This document shows positions 12,003 through 22,124 of a stretch of DNA of 64,000 nt, piece after piece. Source of the DNA: Verrucomicrobiota bacterium (lineage in GTDB: Bacteria; Verrucomicrobiota; Verrucomicrobiia; Limisphaerales; JACPZS01); NCBI GenBank assembly GCA_016195385.1, contig JACPZS010000232.1, forward strand, positions 1-64,000. Reading direction: 5' to 3'. Below the pieces are notes generated by a model. It saw only the letters and a list, made by a program, of their open reading frames with translations. It ran no database searches and was not told the DNA's origin. Positions within the stretch are counted from its first letter, which is position 1. Every line of letters starts with the position of its first letter. A program made the translations under genes and the position numbers.

Positions 12003-13853
12003 ATGATAACGGACACTCGACAATTGCTCGGAGAATACGCGGCGGATGGCTCGGAAGCGGCTTTCCGGGAACTGGTCGCGCGCTACCTCAACCTGGTTTA
12101 TTCGACGGCGCTGCGGCTGGTGGGCGGCAACGCTCAGTTGGCGGAGGACGTGTCGCAGGCGGTTTTTCTCGGCCTGGCGCGCAAGGGCCGCACGCTGTCC
12201 AGCAAGGTGATGCTGGGCGGCTGGCTGCATCAGCACACGTATCATGTGGCGACCCGGGCCGTGCGCAGCGAGCAGCGCCGTCAAATCCGTGAACGCGAGG
12301 CCGTGGAAATGAACAAACTACAGGACGATTCTGGAGCGCACTGGCGGCAACTGGCTCCGATACTCGATGAAGCCATCACGCAACTGGGAAGCGAAGATCG
12401 CACCGCGATTTTGCTTCGCTATTTCGAGCAGCAGGATTTTCGCGCCGTGGGCGAAGCGTTGGGCAGCACACAGGATGCGGCACGGGTGCGCGTGAACCGG
12501 GCGTTGGAGAAATTGCAGGCTCTGCTGAAGCAGCGCGGTGTCGCTCTCTCCGTCGGGACGCTGGGAACGCTGCTCGCGGCGGGATCGATCACAGCGGCAC
12601 CCGCTGGACTGGCGCTCGCGATCTCCACTGCCGCCTTGGCGGGCGCGGCGACCGGCACCGGAACGACTCTCACTCTCTTAAAACTTATGGCTACCACCAA
12701 ACTTAAACTCGGACTTACCGCTCTGGTCGTCGCTGGCGCGGCGACCACCGTCGTCATCCAACACCGTTCGCAAGTCGAAGTGCGGGACGAAAACCAATCG
12801 TTGCGCCAGCAAATCGCGCAACTCCAAACCGACAACGAAAACCTCGCCAACCGAACCACTCTCTCGAAAATAACTCGCGCTCCGCACCTGCCCGCGCCGC
12901 CCATGCCGGCCATTGCCTCGGTGGATGCAATGCCGCCGGAGCCAGTCCAAACCCGTAATCTCTATGCCCTGCTCACGAACCGAACTTCACAGGTGAAACT
13001 CACCGCGGTTCAAGCCGAAGCTTATCTCAAAGAACATCGCCGGAGCGCCGCCAGTCTTCTGGCCGCTTTTCGCACGTCGGACGATCCGGCGCTGCTCCAG
13101 GAAGCGATGCAGAAATATCCGAATGATCCGCAAGTAAGTTTTGAAGCGGCGTCACGCCACGACGCTCCCCCCGACGAACGTCGGCAATGGTTGGACAAGT
13201 TGAAGCAGTCCGCTCCGGAGAACGCCCTCGCAAACTATCTCTCGGCCGCTGATCACTTCAAAGCGGGCCAGGCCGATCAGGCCGTGCAGGATCTCATCGC
13301 CGCCGCCGGCAAGCCGCAGTTTCAGGAATACAACCTGGATCGCATCCAAGCGGATGAAGAAGCATACCGCGCGGCCGGTTATCCCGAGGCGGAGGCCAAA
13401 CTTCTCGCGAGTTCACAGTTGGTGATGGCGCATCTCGGATCCGTGAGTGGGTTGAGTGGGAGTCTGCTCGAGCTGGCCAAATCCTACCAGCAGGCGGGGG
13501 ATGAGGCTTCCCGGCAGACGGCCTTGCAGATGGCGGTTGATTTGGGCCAGCGCTATGGCGACGACACGCCTGGGCAGATGTTGGCAGCCAAACTTCTTGG
13601 CATAAGTATCCAACGCAAAGGTCTCGGAGCGATGGATCCCAACCAGGCTTATGGCGGTGGTGGCCAAACGGTGCAGGATCGACTCGCTCAACTCGTCCAA
13701 CAAAAAGCGGCGCTCGGAGAACTCACCAAGCAAACTGACCCGATCATGCAAACGATGCCGGACGCGGATTGGATCAGTTTCAACGATCGTTTGATGATCT
13801 TTGGCGAAGAACCCGCGATGCGGTGGCTGATCGCCAAGCACGGGCCGAAATGA
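12003..13853 (+). CDS. ECF sigma factor fused to a membrane-anchored C-terminal domain
   Basis: 616 residues. Residues 1-180 are an ECF sigma factor: region 2 is FRELVARYLNLVYSTALRLV with DVSQAVFLGLARK, and region 4 is ILLRYFEQQDFRAVGEALG followed by DAARVRVNRALEKL. A long hydrophobic Ala/Gly-rich stretch (about 183-225) and a clear membrane helix (LKLGLTALVVAGAATTVVI) follow, then a coiled coil (LRQQIAQLQTDNENLANR) and a helical domain of 350 residues with TPR-like character. The fusion suggests a sigma factor held at the membrane or regulated in cis by its extracytoplasmic part; that is inference. I chose ATG 12003, since the upstream TTG extension is not sigma-like. The next gene starts 18 bases later. 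Confidence 0.85.
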   Translation: MITDTRQLLGEYAADGSEAAFRELVARYLNLVYSTALRLVGGNAQLAEDVSQAVFLGLARKGRTLSSKVMLGGWLHQHTYHVATRAVRSEQRRQIREREAVEMNKLQDDSGAHWRQLAPILDEAITQLGSEDRTAILLRYFEQQDFRAVGEALGSTQDAARVRVNRALEKLQALLKQRGVALSVGTLGTLLAAGSITAAPAGLALAISTAALAGAATGTGTTLTLLKLMATTKLKLGLTALVVAGAATTVVIQHRSQVEVRDENQSLRQQIAQLQTDNENLANRTTLSKITRAPHLPAPPMPAIASVDAMPPEPVQTRNLYALLTNRTSQVKLTAVQAEAYLKEHRRSAASLLAAFRTSDDPALLQEAMQKYPNDPQVSFEAASRHDAPPDERRQWLDKLKQSAPENALANYLSAADHFKAGQADQAVQDLIAAAGKPQFQEYNLDRIQADEEAYRAAGYPEAEAKLLASSQLVMAHLGSVSGLSGSLLELAKSYQQAGDEASRQTALQMAVDLGQRYGDDTPGQMLAAKLLGISIQRKGLGAMDPNQAYGGGGQTVQDRLAQLVQQKAALGELTKQTDPIMQTMPDADWISFNDRLMIFGEEPAMRWLIAKHGPK

Positions 13854-15700: not shown

Positions 15701-16051
15701 TCACTCCAATTCATGCACGTCGTGCAACACACCGCGCGGAACGCAGACGACCAGCACTTTCAGCGCGCCCCAAGCTTTGTGTTTCACTCCGCGCGGCACA
15801 TAGATCACTTGGCCGGGCCGCACTTCGATTTCATCATCGGCCAGCCGCATCCAGCCGTGGCCGTCGATGACGTAATAAATTTCATCGGTGCGCTCATGGA
15901 AGTGCAGTTTGGCATCGGTGATTTCCAAGTGATGAACTTCTGCCGCCGCGCCATCCTTTTCCTCGATGAGCGGTCGAATCTGACCGCACGTTTCCGTCCA
16001 CGGTTTCACATCGGCGGGATCACGGTGCAGAAAAGTCGAGCTAGAATTCAT
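15701..16051 (-). CDS. cupin-domain protein
   Basis: 116 residues, a single small cupin barrel. Motif 1 is seen as LHFHERTDEIYYVIDGHG (metal-binding His-x-His...Glu) and motif 2 around VRPGQVIYVPRGVKHKAWG with its His. The fold resembles mannose-6-phosphate isomerase-like cupins used as sugar-binding proteins or small metal enzymes. No operon partner on the same strand is close: 70 bases separate it from the glycosidase-like gene upstream. The 195 bases between the frameshifted gene and this one hold nothing recognisable. Substrate unknown. Confidence 0.82.
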   Translation of the reverse strand: MNSSSTFLHRDPADVKPWTETCGQIRPLIEEKDGAAAEVHHLEITDAKLHFHERTDEIYYVIDGHGWMRLADDEIEVRPGQVIYVPRGVKHKAWGALKVLVVCVPRGVLHDVHELE

Positions 16052-16121: not shown

Positions 16122-17708
16122 TCATCGAATTGAGGTTGATACGATAAGCTTCAGCGCGATGTCTTCGGTGAAATCCGGCGTCTCGGTCAGCCAACCGCCG
16201 CCGGGATGCGTGAAGGGTTCCAGCGTCCGAACTGAACCGTCGCGCGGCGTGACCCATTCGGCCTGCCAACGGCCCGGCGGCAAATCCATCGCGAACTTTG
16301 TTCGGCGCGGTTGTTCCGAACCACGAAAATAAACCGCGTACACTTTGCCCGGTTGTTCGAGTACGTAAAAAGATTCGCTCGGCGAATGCGGCCACGGACG
16401 CAGCCGATGCTGATTCGGTCGCATGTTGATGAAGTCGAGGCTCTCCATGAATTTCTTCAACACGCCGAGTTGCGCGCGCACGTCGCGGCAATCGTACCGT
16501 CCATCCGCCTGCATCACCTTGCCGCTGCCCGTCGGGTCGTCGGTCGCGAACGAAGGATCGAGATTGTCGTAGCCCGCGCCGCCACTGAGCATGAACGCCC
16601 ACGCCTCGCGCCGCCGGTCGAGCGCCTTGTGGCCCGCGTTGCCCGCGGTCTCGTCAAACACGATTGGCTTGTTGAAATGCCAGTTCAACGGCACGGCAGC
16701 AGGTGGCGAGCAATAATGGAAGTTGAACACCGAAATCGCCGGATGCGGTTTCTCGACCGCGATGTAACCGTTCGCAAAATTCACCGCGATGAGATGCTTC
16801 TTCGGCAGCTTGCGCTCGGTGGCAACGAACGTGTCGATGAGGTGGTTCTGCCACGCGGTCGTCTCGGCTGGACTCGCGCCGGAGAAATACGGCTCGTCGC
16901 ACATCTCGTAATACACGTTGTCGAACTCGTTCAACTCCGTGAGCGTCTTGCGCAGCAGCGCGTCCTGTCGCGCCACGATGCCGGCGTCGGTGAGCGTGTT
17001 GTAGCGATGCCAGGGAATGTTGCCGACGCCGTTTATGTTGTTGGCCGCATTGAACGGATGCAGCACCCAACTGCCTTTTGTCGGTCCCTCGTCGTAAAGC
17101 ACGTAGAACGCGTTGAACTCGACGACAATTCCGCGTTCGCCGGCGGCGCGAACAAAACTCTTGAGGCGCGCGAAATAATTTTCATCCCACTTGTCCAAAT
17201 CAAATTTGTTGCCACCGAAATAATAGCCGAGCTGATCACTGCGTTTCCATGGGGCGAGGTAACGTCCGAGACGCGGCGCGAGCGGATTTTGATCGCCGCC
17301 ACGCCAGAGCGTCGTATTCGTGGATTCGAGATAACTTCCGTTCACCGTGCGCGTCAGGTTCAAGCCAGCGGCCTTGAGCGTGTCGAGATAGGTGACGAAG
17401 TCGAAGTCCGGATTCAGTACCGCACCGTAATGCTCGGTCGAGGTGATGAGCACCGTCGGTTTCTCGTGGAAGAGAAAGTAGTGCTGGTTTTCGGGATGAA
17501 CACGAATTGGCTCGGCATGGCTCATCAAGGTCGCCAGCGAGAAAAGTGCGAAGCTCAATCCAGCGATGAATCGCTGCGCTATTCTCGGGTGCCTCGGCGG
17601 GACGGACTCCAACGCCAGCGCCTCATTGCGCTGACTCAACGCGGAATAGCCCACCATGTCCGTGAACATGATGGCGGCGAGCTTGCGCTGTTCCGTGCTG
17701 TCGCTCAT
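16122..17708 (-). CDS. glycoside-hydrolase-like secreted protein with a class III cyclase fragment at its N-terminus
   Basis: 528 residues read as one frame. Residues 1-34 (RKLAAIMFTDMVGYSALSQ) are the beginning of a class III adenylate/guanylate cyclase domain, with the first metal-binding Asp in FTDMVGYS; the cyclase stops there. From residue 35 the sequence becomes a signal-peptide-like segment (RFIAGLSFALFSLATLMSHA) followed by a TIM-barrel-type hydrolase domain (HYGAVLNPDFDFVTYLDTL, YYEMCDEPYFSG, PIVFDETAGN) and a C-terminal beta domain. The Glu residues in EMCDEP and FDET fit acid/base and nucleophile positions of clan GH-A enzymes. The native hydrolase may start at an internal non-ATG codon. 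I think this is a chimeric 5' end from a deletion or insertion. Confidence 0.7.
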   Translation of the reverse strand: MSDSTEQRKLAAIMFTDMVGYSALSQRNEALALESVPPRHPRIAQRFIAGLSFALFSLATLMSHAEPIRVHPENQHYFLFHEKPTVLITSTEHYGAVLNPDFDFVTYLDTLKAAGLNLTRTVNGSYLESTNTTLWRGGDQNPLAPRLGRYLAPWKRSDQLGYYFGGNKFDLDKWDENYFARLKSFVRAAGERGIVVEFNAFYVLYDEGPTKGSWVLHPFNAANNINGVGNIPWHRYNTLTDAGIVARQDALLRKTLTELNEFDNVYYEMCDEPYFSGASPAETTAWQNHLIDTFVATERKLPKKHLIAVNFANGYIAVEKPHPAISVFNFHYCSPPAAVPLNWHFNKPIVFDETAGNAGHKALDRRREAWAFMLSGGAGYDNLDPSFATDDPTGSGKVMQADGRYDCRDVRAQLGVLKKFMESLDFINMRPNQHRLRPWPHSPSESFYVLEQPGKVYAVYFRGSEQPRRTKFAMDLPPGRWQAEWVTPRDGSVRTLEPFTHPGGGWLTETPDFTEDIALKLIVSTSIR

Positions 17709-21788: not shown

Positions 21789-22124
21789 GTTGGTCCGTCG
21801 TTTACACCAAGCAAGCCCAGAAGGACGCCCAGAAGATTGCGTCCTCGAATCTCAGGCCCAAGCCAACGTCTTCTCGACATCCTCCCCATTGGAGCGCCGG
21901 TCTCCGACCCGGCGCGAAGCCAACCAAACAGCGTCACGCGCCGGGTCGGAGACCGGCGCTCCGGTTCAAGGGCGCAAAGCGCGCAAAAATTCGGAGTGGT
22001 CTCGCCGAGAATCCTTTCCAGAACCCGCTACCCTACGAAAAGCTCGTTGGCGAGTTGGCGGGCGCTTATTCCCGCCGCATCAACATTCAACACCGTCAAA
22101 GTTCTCCGTATGTGGACTCACTAA
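21785..22124 (+). pseudogene. YoeB/Txe-family toxin, disrupted by a hairpin element and deletions
   Basis: It begins with GTG as MSWSVVYTKQAQKDAQKIAS, the N-terminus of Txe/YoeB RNases. Family features reappear downstream in pieces: LLDIL in another frame, then LAENPFQNPLPYEKLVGELA with GAYSRRINIQHR, and finally TVKVLRMWTH in a third frame. Between the first two pieces lies a 72-base hairpin element (21891-21962) plus flanking sequence. Two bases are missing just before it, and about 25 bases are missing between IQH and TVKV, where the family normally has a segment like RLVYQVL. The catalytic C-terminal His-Tyr end is altered. A functional ribosome-dependent RNase is unlikely. Confidence 0.8.
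21891..21962. repeat. long perfect hairpin element inside the YoeB toxin gene
   Basis: Two 26-base arms (21891-21916 and 21937-21962) are exactly complementary, separated by a 20-base loop. The left arm begins GGAGCGCCGGTCTCC and the right arm ends GGAGACCGGCGCTCC. It has the look of a REP/MITE-type non-autonomous element. Its insertion broke the toxin frame. No target-site duplication was clear. Confidence 0.8.

Follow-up and report, generated by a model that had tools for sequence, protein, structure and literature searches.

The window analyzed here, a 64,000-nucleotide stretch of a contig from a Verrucomicrobiota bacterium, carries on its minus strand an ORF (17708..16122) that runs for 528 codons without an internal stop and codes for a protein of 528 aa reading MSDSTEQRKLAAIMFTDMVGYSALSQRNEALALE-SVPPRHPRIAQRFIAGLSFALFSLATLMSHAEPIRVHPENQHYF..., in a frame unbroken across two joins. 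Its first 34 codons (17607..17708, minus strand) are the start of a class III cyclase (MSDSTEQRKLAAIMFTDMVGYSALSQRNEALALE), recognized by matches to paralogues. They are followed by the left-end relic of a dispersed palindromic repeat (17556..17603, minus strand, coding for V36 to L51), identified by blastn and by a spacing and frame common to other loci, and, from about residue 52 up to and including the stop codon (16122..17555, minus strand), by hydrolase-derived sequence, GH-A/apiosidase-like according to its homologues and three conserved glutamates and probably exported. Residues 47 to 62 (FIAGLSFALFSLATLM, 17523..17570, minus strand) form the hydrophobic core of a signal-peptide-like helix, with a peak of 2.05 at residue 47 that is the highest hydrophobicity of any 15-residue segment starting at residues 1 to 90; the repeat relic supplies the first five residues of this helix and a large share of the N-region ahead of it. 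Downstream on the same strand there is a gene for a cupin protein (15701..16051; PF07883, E 1.2e-10), a possible operon partner. The original prediction had described a cyclase start fused in frame to a signal-peptide-like helix and a hydrolase-like protein at 17580-17708, which is correct, and the repeat-derived piece extends to 17556. Most likely, the ORF is a real, in-frame, two-step chimera of cyclase start, palindromic-repeat relic, and hydrolase.

A tblastn search of the window with a 702-aa cyclase paralogue from contig C220 gave a single match at E ≤ 1, at 17696-17607, where residues 5 to 34 match at 93%. This bears out the cyclase N-terminus claimed for the first 34 residues, and no remainder of the cyclase is therefore detected in the 64 kb. 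The 20 other cyclase starts of this genome that were compared run on past codon 34 into cyclase sequence, and two of the paralogues match the catalytic domain (Guanylate_cyc, PF00211) at 1e-17 and 9.5e-19, both carrying TPR repeats as well. The fusion matches class III adenylate/guanylate cyclases of this kind over its first 34 codons but, unlike them, has no cyclase domain left, since a Pfam search of the 528 aa found no PF00211 match at E ≤ 1. Over codons 6 to 34, all 29 residues compared occur at the same column in at least one of the 20 paralogues. Class III cyclase starts number at least 20 in this genome, on C220 and other contigs, and cyclase matches at E ≤ 0.001 amount to 33 here and to at most six in each of 38 other genomes. 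Four of the genes lie head-to-tail on C220 (locus L025), with starts at 13632, 11528, 9471, and 7324 and a spacing of ~2.1 kb.

The 48 bp that follow the cyclase codons (17603-17556) align by blastn to repeat copies elsewhere in the genome, with 85% identity to the copy on C104 (E 1.9e-8) and 87.5% to that on C193. With the C104 copy as the query, full or partial copies were found on C104, C193, C37, C99, C95, C234, and C173 (several) besides the window, a match on C220 being confined to the cyclase start, and matches were present in at least 14 of the 39 genomes searched, our own included; for some of these genomes only 19 candidates were scored, so that the counts are lower bounds. Many matches in genome G037 span positions 9-212 of the query, which gives a repeat length of ~204 bp, and many in G022 and others span only about 7-95. 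The C104 copy is predicted to form a single long hairpin (-60.5 kcal/mol with DNA parameters, z -5.8). Its two ends match, in opposite orientations, the Acido-Lenti-1 RNA motif (RF01687) at 45.1 and 41.7 bits, and those of the C95 copy do so, again in opposite orientations, at 38.8 and 33.2 bits; the gathering score of 37 is thus reached by three of the four ends of the two full copies scanned. The relic in the window scores 11.0 bits (E 8.1) with this family, below that gathering score, and the whole window has no Rfam match at the gathering level.

We also considered whether the repeat might be a coding element with a conserved open frame, which we reject. Of 16 copies, one (L301) could not be aligned and 15 were read without gaps; the element frame is stop-free in only three of these 15 (C104, C37, and L302). 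On C37 and C104 the frame is open across the whole element, and in the window the ORF is open across the relic. The C99 copy is broken by a further insert (L022, 12251-12391) with inverted GAGCGCCGAGC/GCTCGGCGCTC ends.

When the junction region was compared with the whole genome at the DNA level, at least 32 matches were obtained, a lower bound because 40 of 64 candidates were scored; the best non-self match has E 4.6e-25. Considering this number of matches and the similarity of the stretch after codon 34 to a dispersed repeat, the joining of cyclase and repeat is not a chance feature. Most of the matches are cyclase starts, and besides the window those on C37, C99, and C104 extend past the junction. 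At all four places ATGTTCAC of the cyclase start and AATAGC(C/G)CAGCG of the repeat delimit a span of exactly 98 bp, and the frame is identical. Among 320 genomes of the order, the exact pattern occurs in our own and in G169 and G178, where the matches are not cyclase starts; the cyclase-start/repeat junction is therefore present, as an exact pattern that diverged junctions would escape, in none of the other 319 cyclase-bearing genomes. Looser pattern scans of genome contigs and of viral contigs gave chance matches, with the cyclase motif at none of 146 loci among the matches listed.

The junction looks homologous, since codon 33 is TTG in the window, C37, and C99, and in none of the 20 paralogues compared; in all three it is followed by TC(A/C)GT(T/C)CCGC. 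C104 is without this TTG, but C37 and C104 have in common a Gly-to-Asp change at codon 20, which points to a common junction. The four cyclase-start fragments differ in their 5' context, however, so that one common origin is not established. On C37, C99, C104, and C193 the repeat passes directly into another cyclase start. The downstream cyclase continues on C37 and C99 (on C99 to the contig end) and is broken off early on C104 and C193. On C37 and C104 no stop interrupts the ORF within the repeat, and the TGA that ends it overlaps the next ATG (AAATGA); on C99 the frame is closed inside the further insert. Given the order of cyclase start, repeat, and full cyclase start on C37 and C99, the copy in the window is most plausibly what remains of such a unit.

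The genome is in 263 contigs, and both the cyclase starts and the repeats are multi-copy, so an assembler might have been led by them to join two separate loci. We regard such an artefact as very improbable. Exact matches between the junction region and the other loci compared reach at most 41 bp, which makes a repeat-driven misjoin unlikely, yet possible; moreover, both joins keep the frame, and the junction is internal to a contig of 109.7 kb.

Homologues of the hydrolase were found in 34 of the 78 genomes searched, our own included, and the region before the hydrolase homology was read at 23 loci, one of which (L074) is cut by the contig end. The comparison with relatives that the original prediction had proposed gave a uniform answer, as the cyclase motif is in none of 22 relatives' frames, and the 23rd locus (L073), inspected by eye, is also without it. 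The hydrolase thus now sits behind a cyclase start, as had been claimed, and the fusion in the window is secondary. The genomes returned by the hydrolase and junction searches include none of the same family; a prefusion locus is thus unseen. A conserved family of cyclase-hydrolase fusions was rejected on the frames of these relatives and on the exact-pattern search of the order. The original prediction had invoked a deletion joining two genes, and here only the part that makes the fusion a derived state holds; a simple two-gene deletion would leave unexplained both the palindromic-repeat piece between the two parts and the junction common to three other loci.

The hydrolase part looks intact at the sequence level. 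E268, E272, and E353 are invariant in all 23 aligned sequences (the window and 22 relatives; the alignment leaves out L073, and L074 is incomplete at its start), and they may include the two catalytic glutamates of a GH-A-type enzyme. Its placement in a family is weak, and we can call it no more precisely than hydrolase-like: the Pfam gathering scores are not reached for Apiosidase (PF13204, 17.1 versus 26.5 bits), Cellulase (PF00150, 16 versus 23.5 bits), or DUF6298 (PF19815, 24.8 versus 28.1 bits), an NCBIfam search gave no match at E ≤ 0.01, the best match to a solved structure is 4n0r (E 0.046), and a single-sequence fold prediction has a mean pLDDT of 35.6. The fusion thus resembles apiosidase-like, DUF6298, and GH5-type glycoside hydrolases in weak profile matches and in the conserved glutamates but falls below every curated cutoff. 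It is probably a secreted, sugar-cutting enzyme; most relatives show, by eye, a hydrophobic stretch at the position of the helix in the window. In the relative with the highest local identity (in G003), such a stretch follows the gene's own start, and the sequence carries an internal deletion.

We propose that the chimera arose in two steps, a DNA history to which we give a probability of about 0.7. In the first, in an ancestor, a palindromic repeat with ends that resemble two inverted Acido-Lenti-1 motifs would have become attached to a cyclase gene start behind codon ~34, and the resulting unit of cyclase start, repeat, and next cyclase start would have spread or been copied among the cyclase paralogues of the genome. 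In the second, at the window locus, the repeat would have broken about 50 bp in and been fused to the signal-peptide region of a hydrolase gene, the remainder of the repeat, any cyclase behind it, and the original hydrolase start being lost. From then on, the hydrolase would lie behind the cyclase start and most likely be translated from the cyclase ATG, giving an exported enzyme with a signal peptide that has an N-region of ~45 residues and a helix built partly from the repeat.

A more far-reaching version, which we put forward only as a tentative idea, is that the repeat and the cyclase start behind it act as a self-healing unit. This unit would have inserted repeatedly into class III cyclase genes, each time at codon ~34, perhaps via recombination between cyclase starts. 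The native start would remain in front as a short leader ORF, its stop overlapping the replacement ATG, as in the AAATGA of C37 and C104, so that the target gene could stay expressed; in the window, an unrelated enzyme would have taken over such a leader as its start for expression and export. In a mosaic comparison, the body of the C99 gene groups with those of C104, C2, and C161 (83-85%; next best, 71%). The start of the C99 gene reads MVGYS, versus IVGYT both in these three and in the C99 fragment ahead of the repeat; however, the EER residues of the C99 gene start are of the body type, so the recombination pattern is mixed.

On the two-step history, the question is where translation of the fusion begins. 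It probably does so at the cyclase ATG, as judged from the sequence, and the main alternative is the TTG at codon 33 (17610..17612, minus strand), a candidate internal start noted by inspection. The DNA history would then be the same, and the cyclase codons would be a 5' leader, with a start or reinitiation at the TTG yielding a signal peptide of normal length (MESVPPRHPRIAQRFIAGLSFALFSLATLMSHA). We think this unlikely, although a GAGG lies eight bases upstream of the TTG (17612-17610) and in the relatives, by eye, a possible start shortly precedes the hydrophobic stretch, because the frame from the ATG is open through both joins and the cyclase codons of the fusion hold no residue unseen in the 20 paralogues, as compared with four on C37, two on C99, and six on C104. 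The absence of such residues fits continued translation, and a recent fusion would look alike. An exported enzyme could result either from a signal peptide whose N-region is long or from a start at the TTG, so the earlier verdict that a cyclase start ahead of a signal sequence makes no functional sense is too strong.

The same DNA history would also hold if the fusion were a decaying pseudogene, a dead relic without a product. The unseen residues in the sister fragments of C37 and C104, the lack of a full downstream cyclase on C104 and C193, and the internal deletion in the G003 relative speak for decay. In the window, however, the 528 codons are open, the residues invariant in relatives are retained, and the cyclase codons are unspoilt, so that we consider a pseudogene improbable.

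As regards transcription, it had been suggested that the hydrolase may use the promoter of the cyclase. A scan upstream of the fusion found no sigma-70-type consensus promoter, and the 104 nt upstream contain only an 11-base match to the upstream region of a paralogue (C188); on the other side, whole-query similarity to the C161 paralogue extends 45 nt upstream of the ATG. Use of a cyclase promoter is accordingly something that we can only infer. Among the cyclase genes, a stretch resembling ATTGC...TAATAC was seen by eye directly before the start codon on C142, C240, C26, C14, and C54 and in the C37 fragment, which suggests that these genes may share a promoter and have transcripts with almost no leader.

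Rickettsia palindromic elements (RPE) and other MITEs have been described as fused in frame to host genes (PMC10969869). The likeness to RPE would lie in a short, dispersed palindromic element that sits in frame inside a gene and adds its translation to the product (PMC10969869). In contrast to RPE, the repeat described here is found behind cyclase starts at several loci, contributes to a signal-peptide-like helix, and has a frame that few copies keep free of stops. A palindromic element translated within a host gene is thus of a known kind, as described for Rickettsia (PMC10969869), and the capture of a start together with the rebuilding of a signal peptide is a variant of it. A literature search found no paper that combines Verrucomicrobia with intergenic palindromic repeat elements, which bears only on whether these terms occur together in the library searched. 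The locus indicates that a gene's start can be brought to another gene by a dispersed palindromic repeat, which also contributes to rebuilding a signal peptide, and that likely intermediates of such a transfer persist in the same genome.

The Acido-Lenti-1 RNA motif is listed in Table 1 of a 2010 paper (PMC2864571). The ends of the two full repeat copies match this 46-nt motif, but here it occurs as an inverted pair within a dispersed palindrome, and the relic in the window is far below the family score. Our data indicate that a dispersed palindromic element can have a pair of Acido-Lenti-1 motifs as its two ends, a finding that would be relevant to the nature of that orphan RNA family.

Another palindrome in the window, of 72 bp (21891-21962) and different from the repeat in the fusion, interrupts, apparently in frame, a plus-strand frame (21806-22120) downstream of a Phd/YefM antitoxin gene (PF02604). 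We take the interrupted frame, which has no Pfam match, to resemble a YoeB-type toxin. Related copies of this palindrome are present on C153, C195, C74, and C251.
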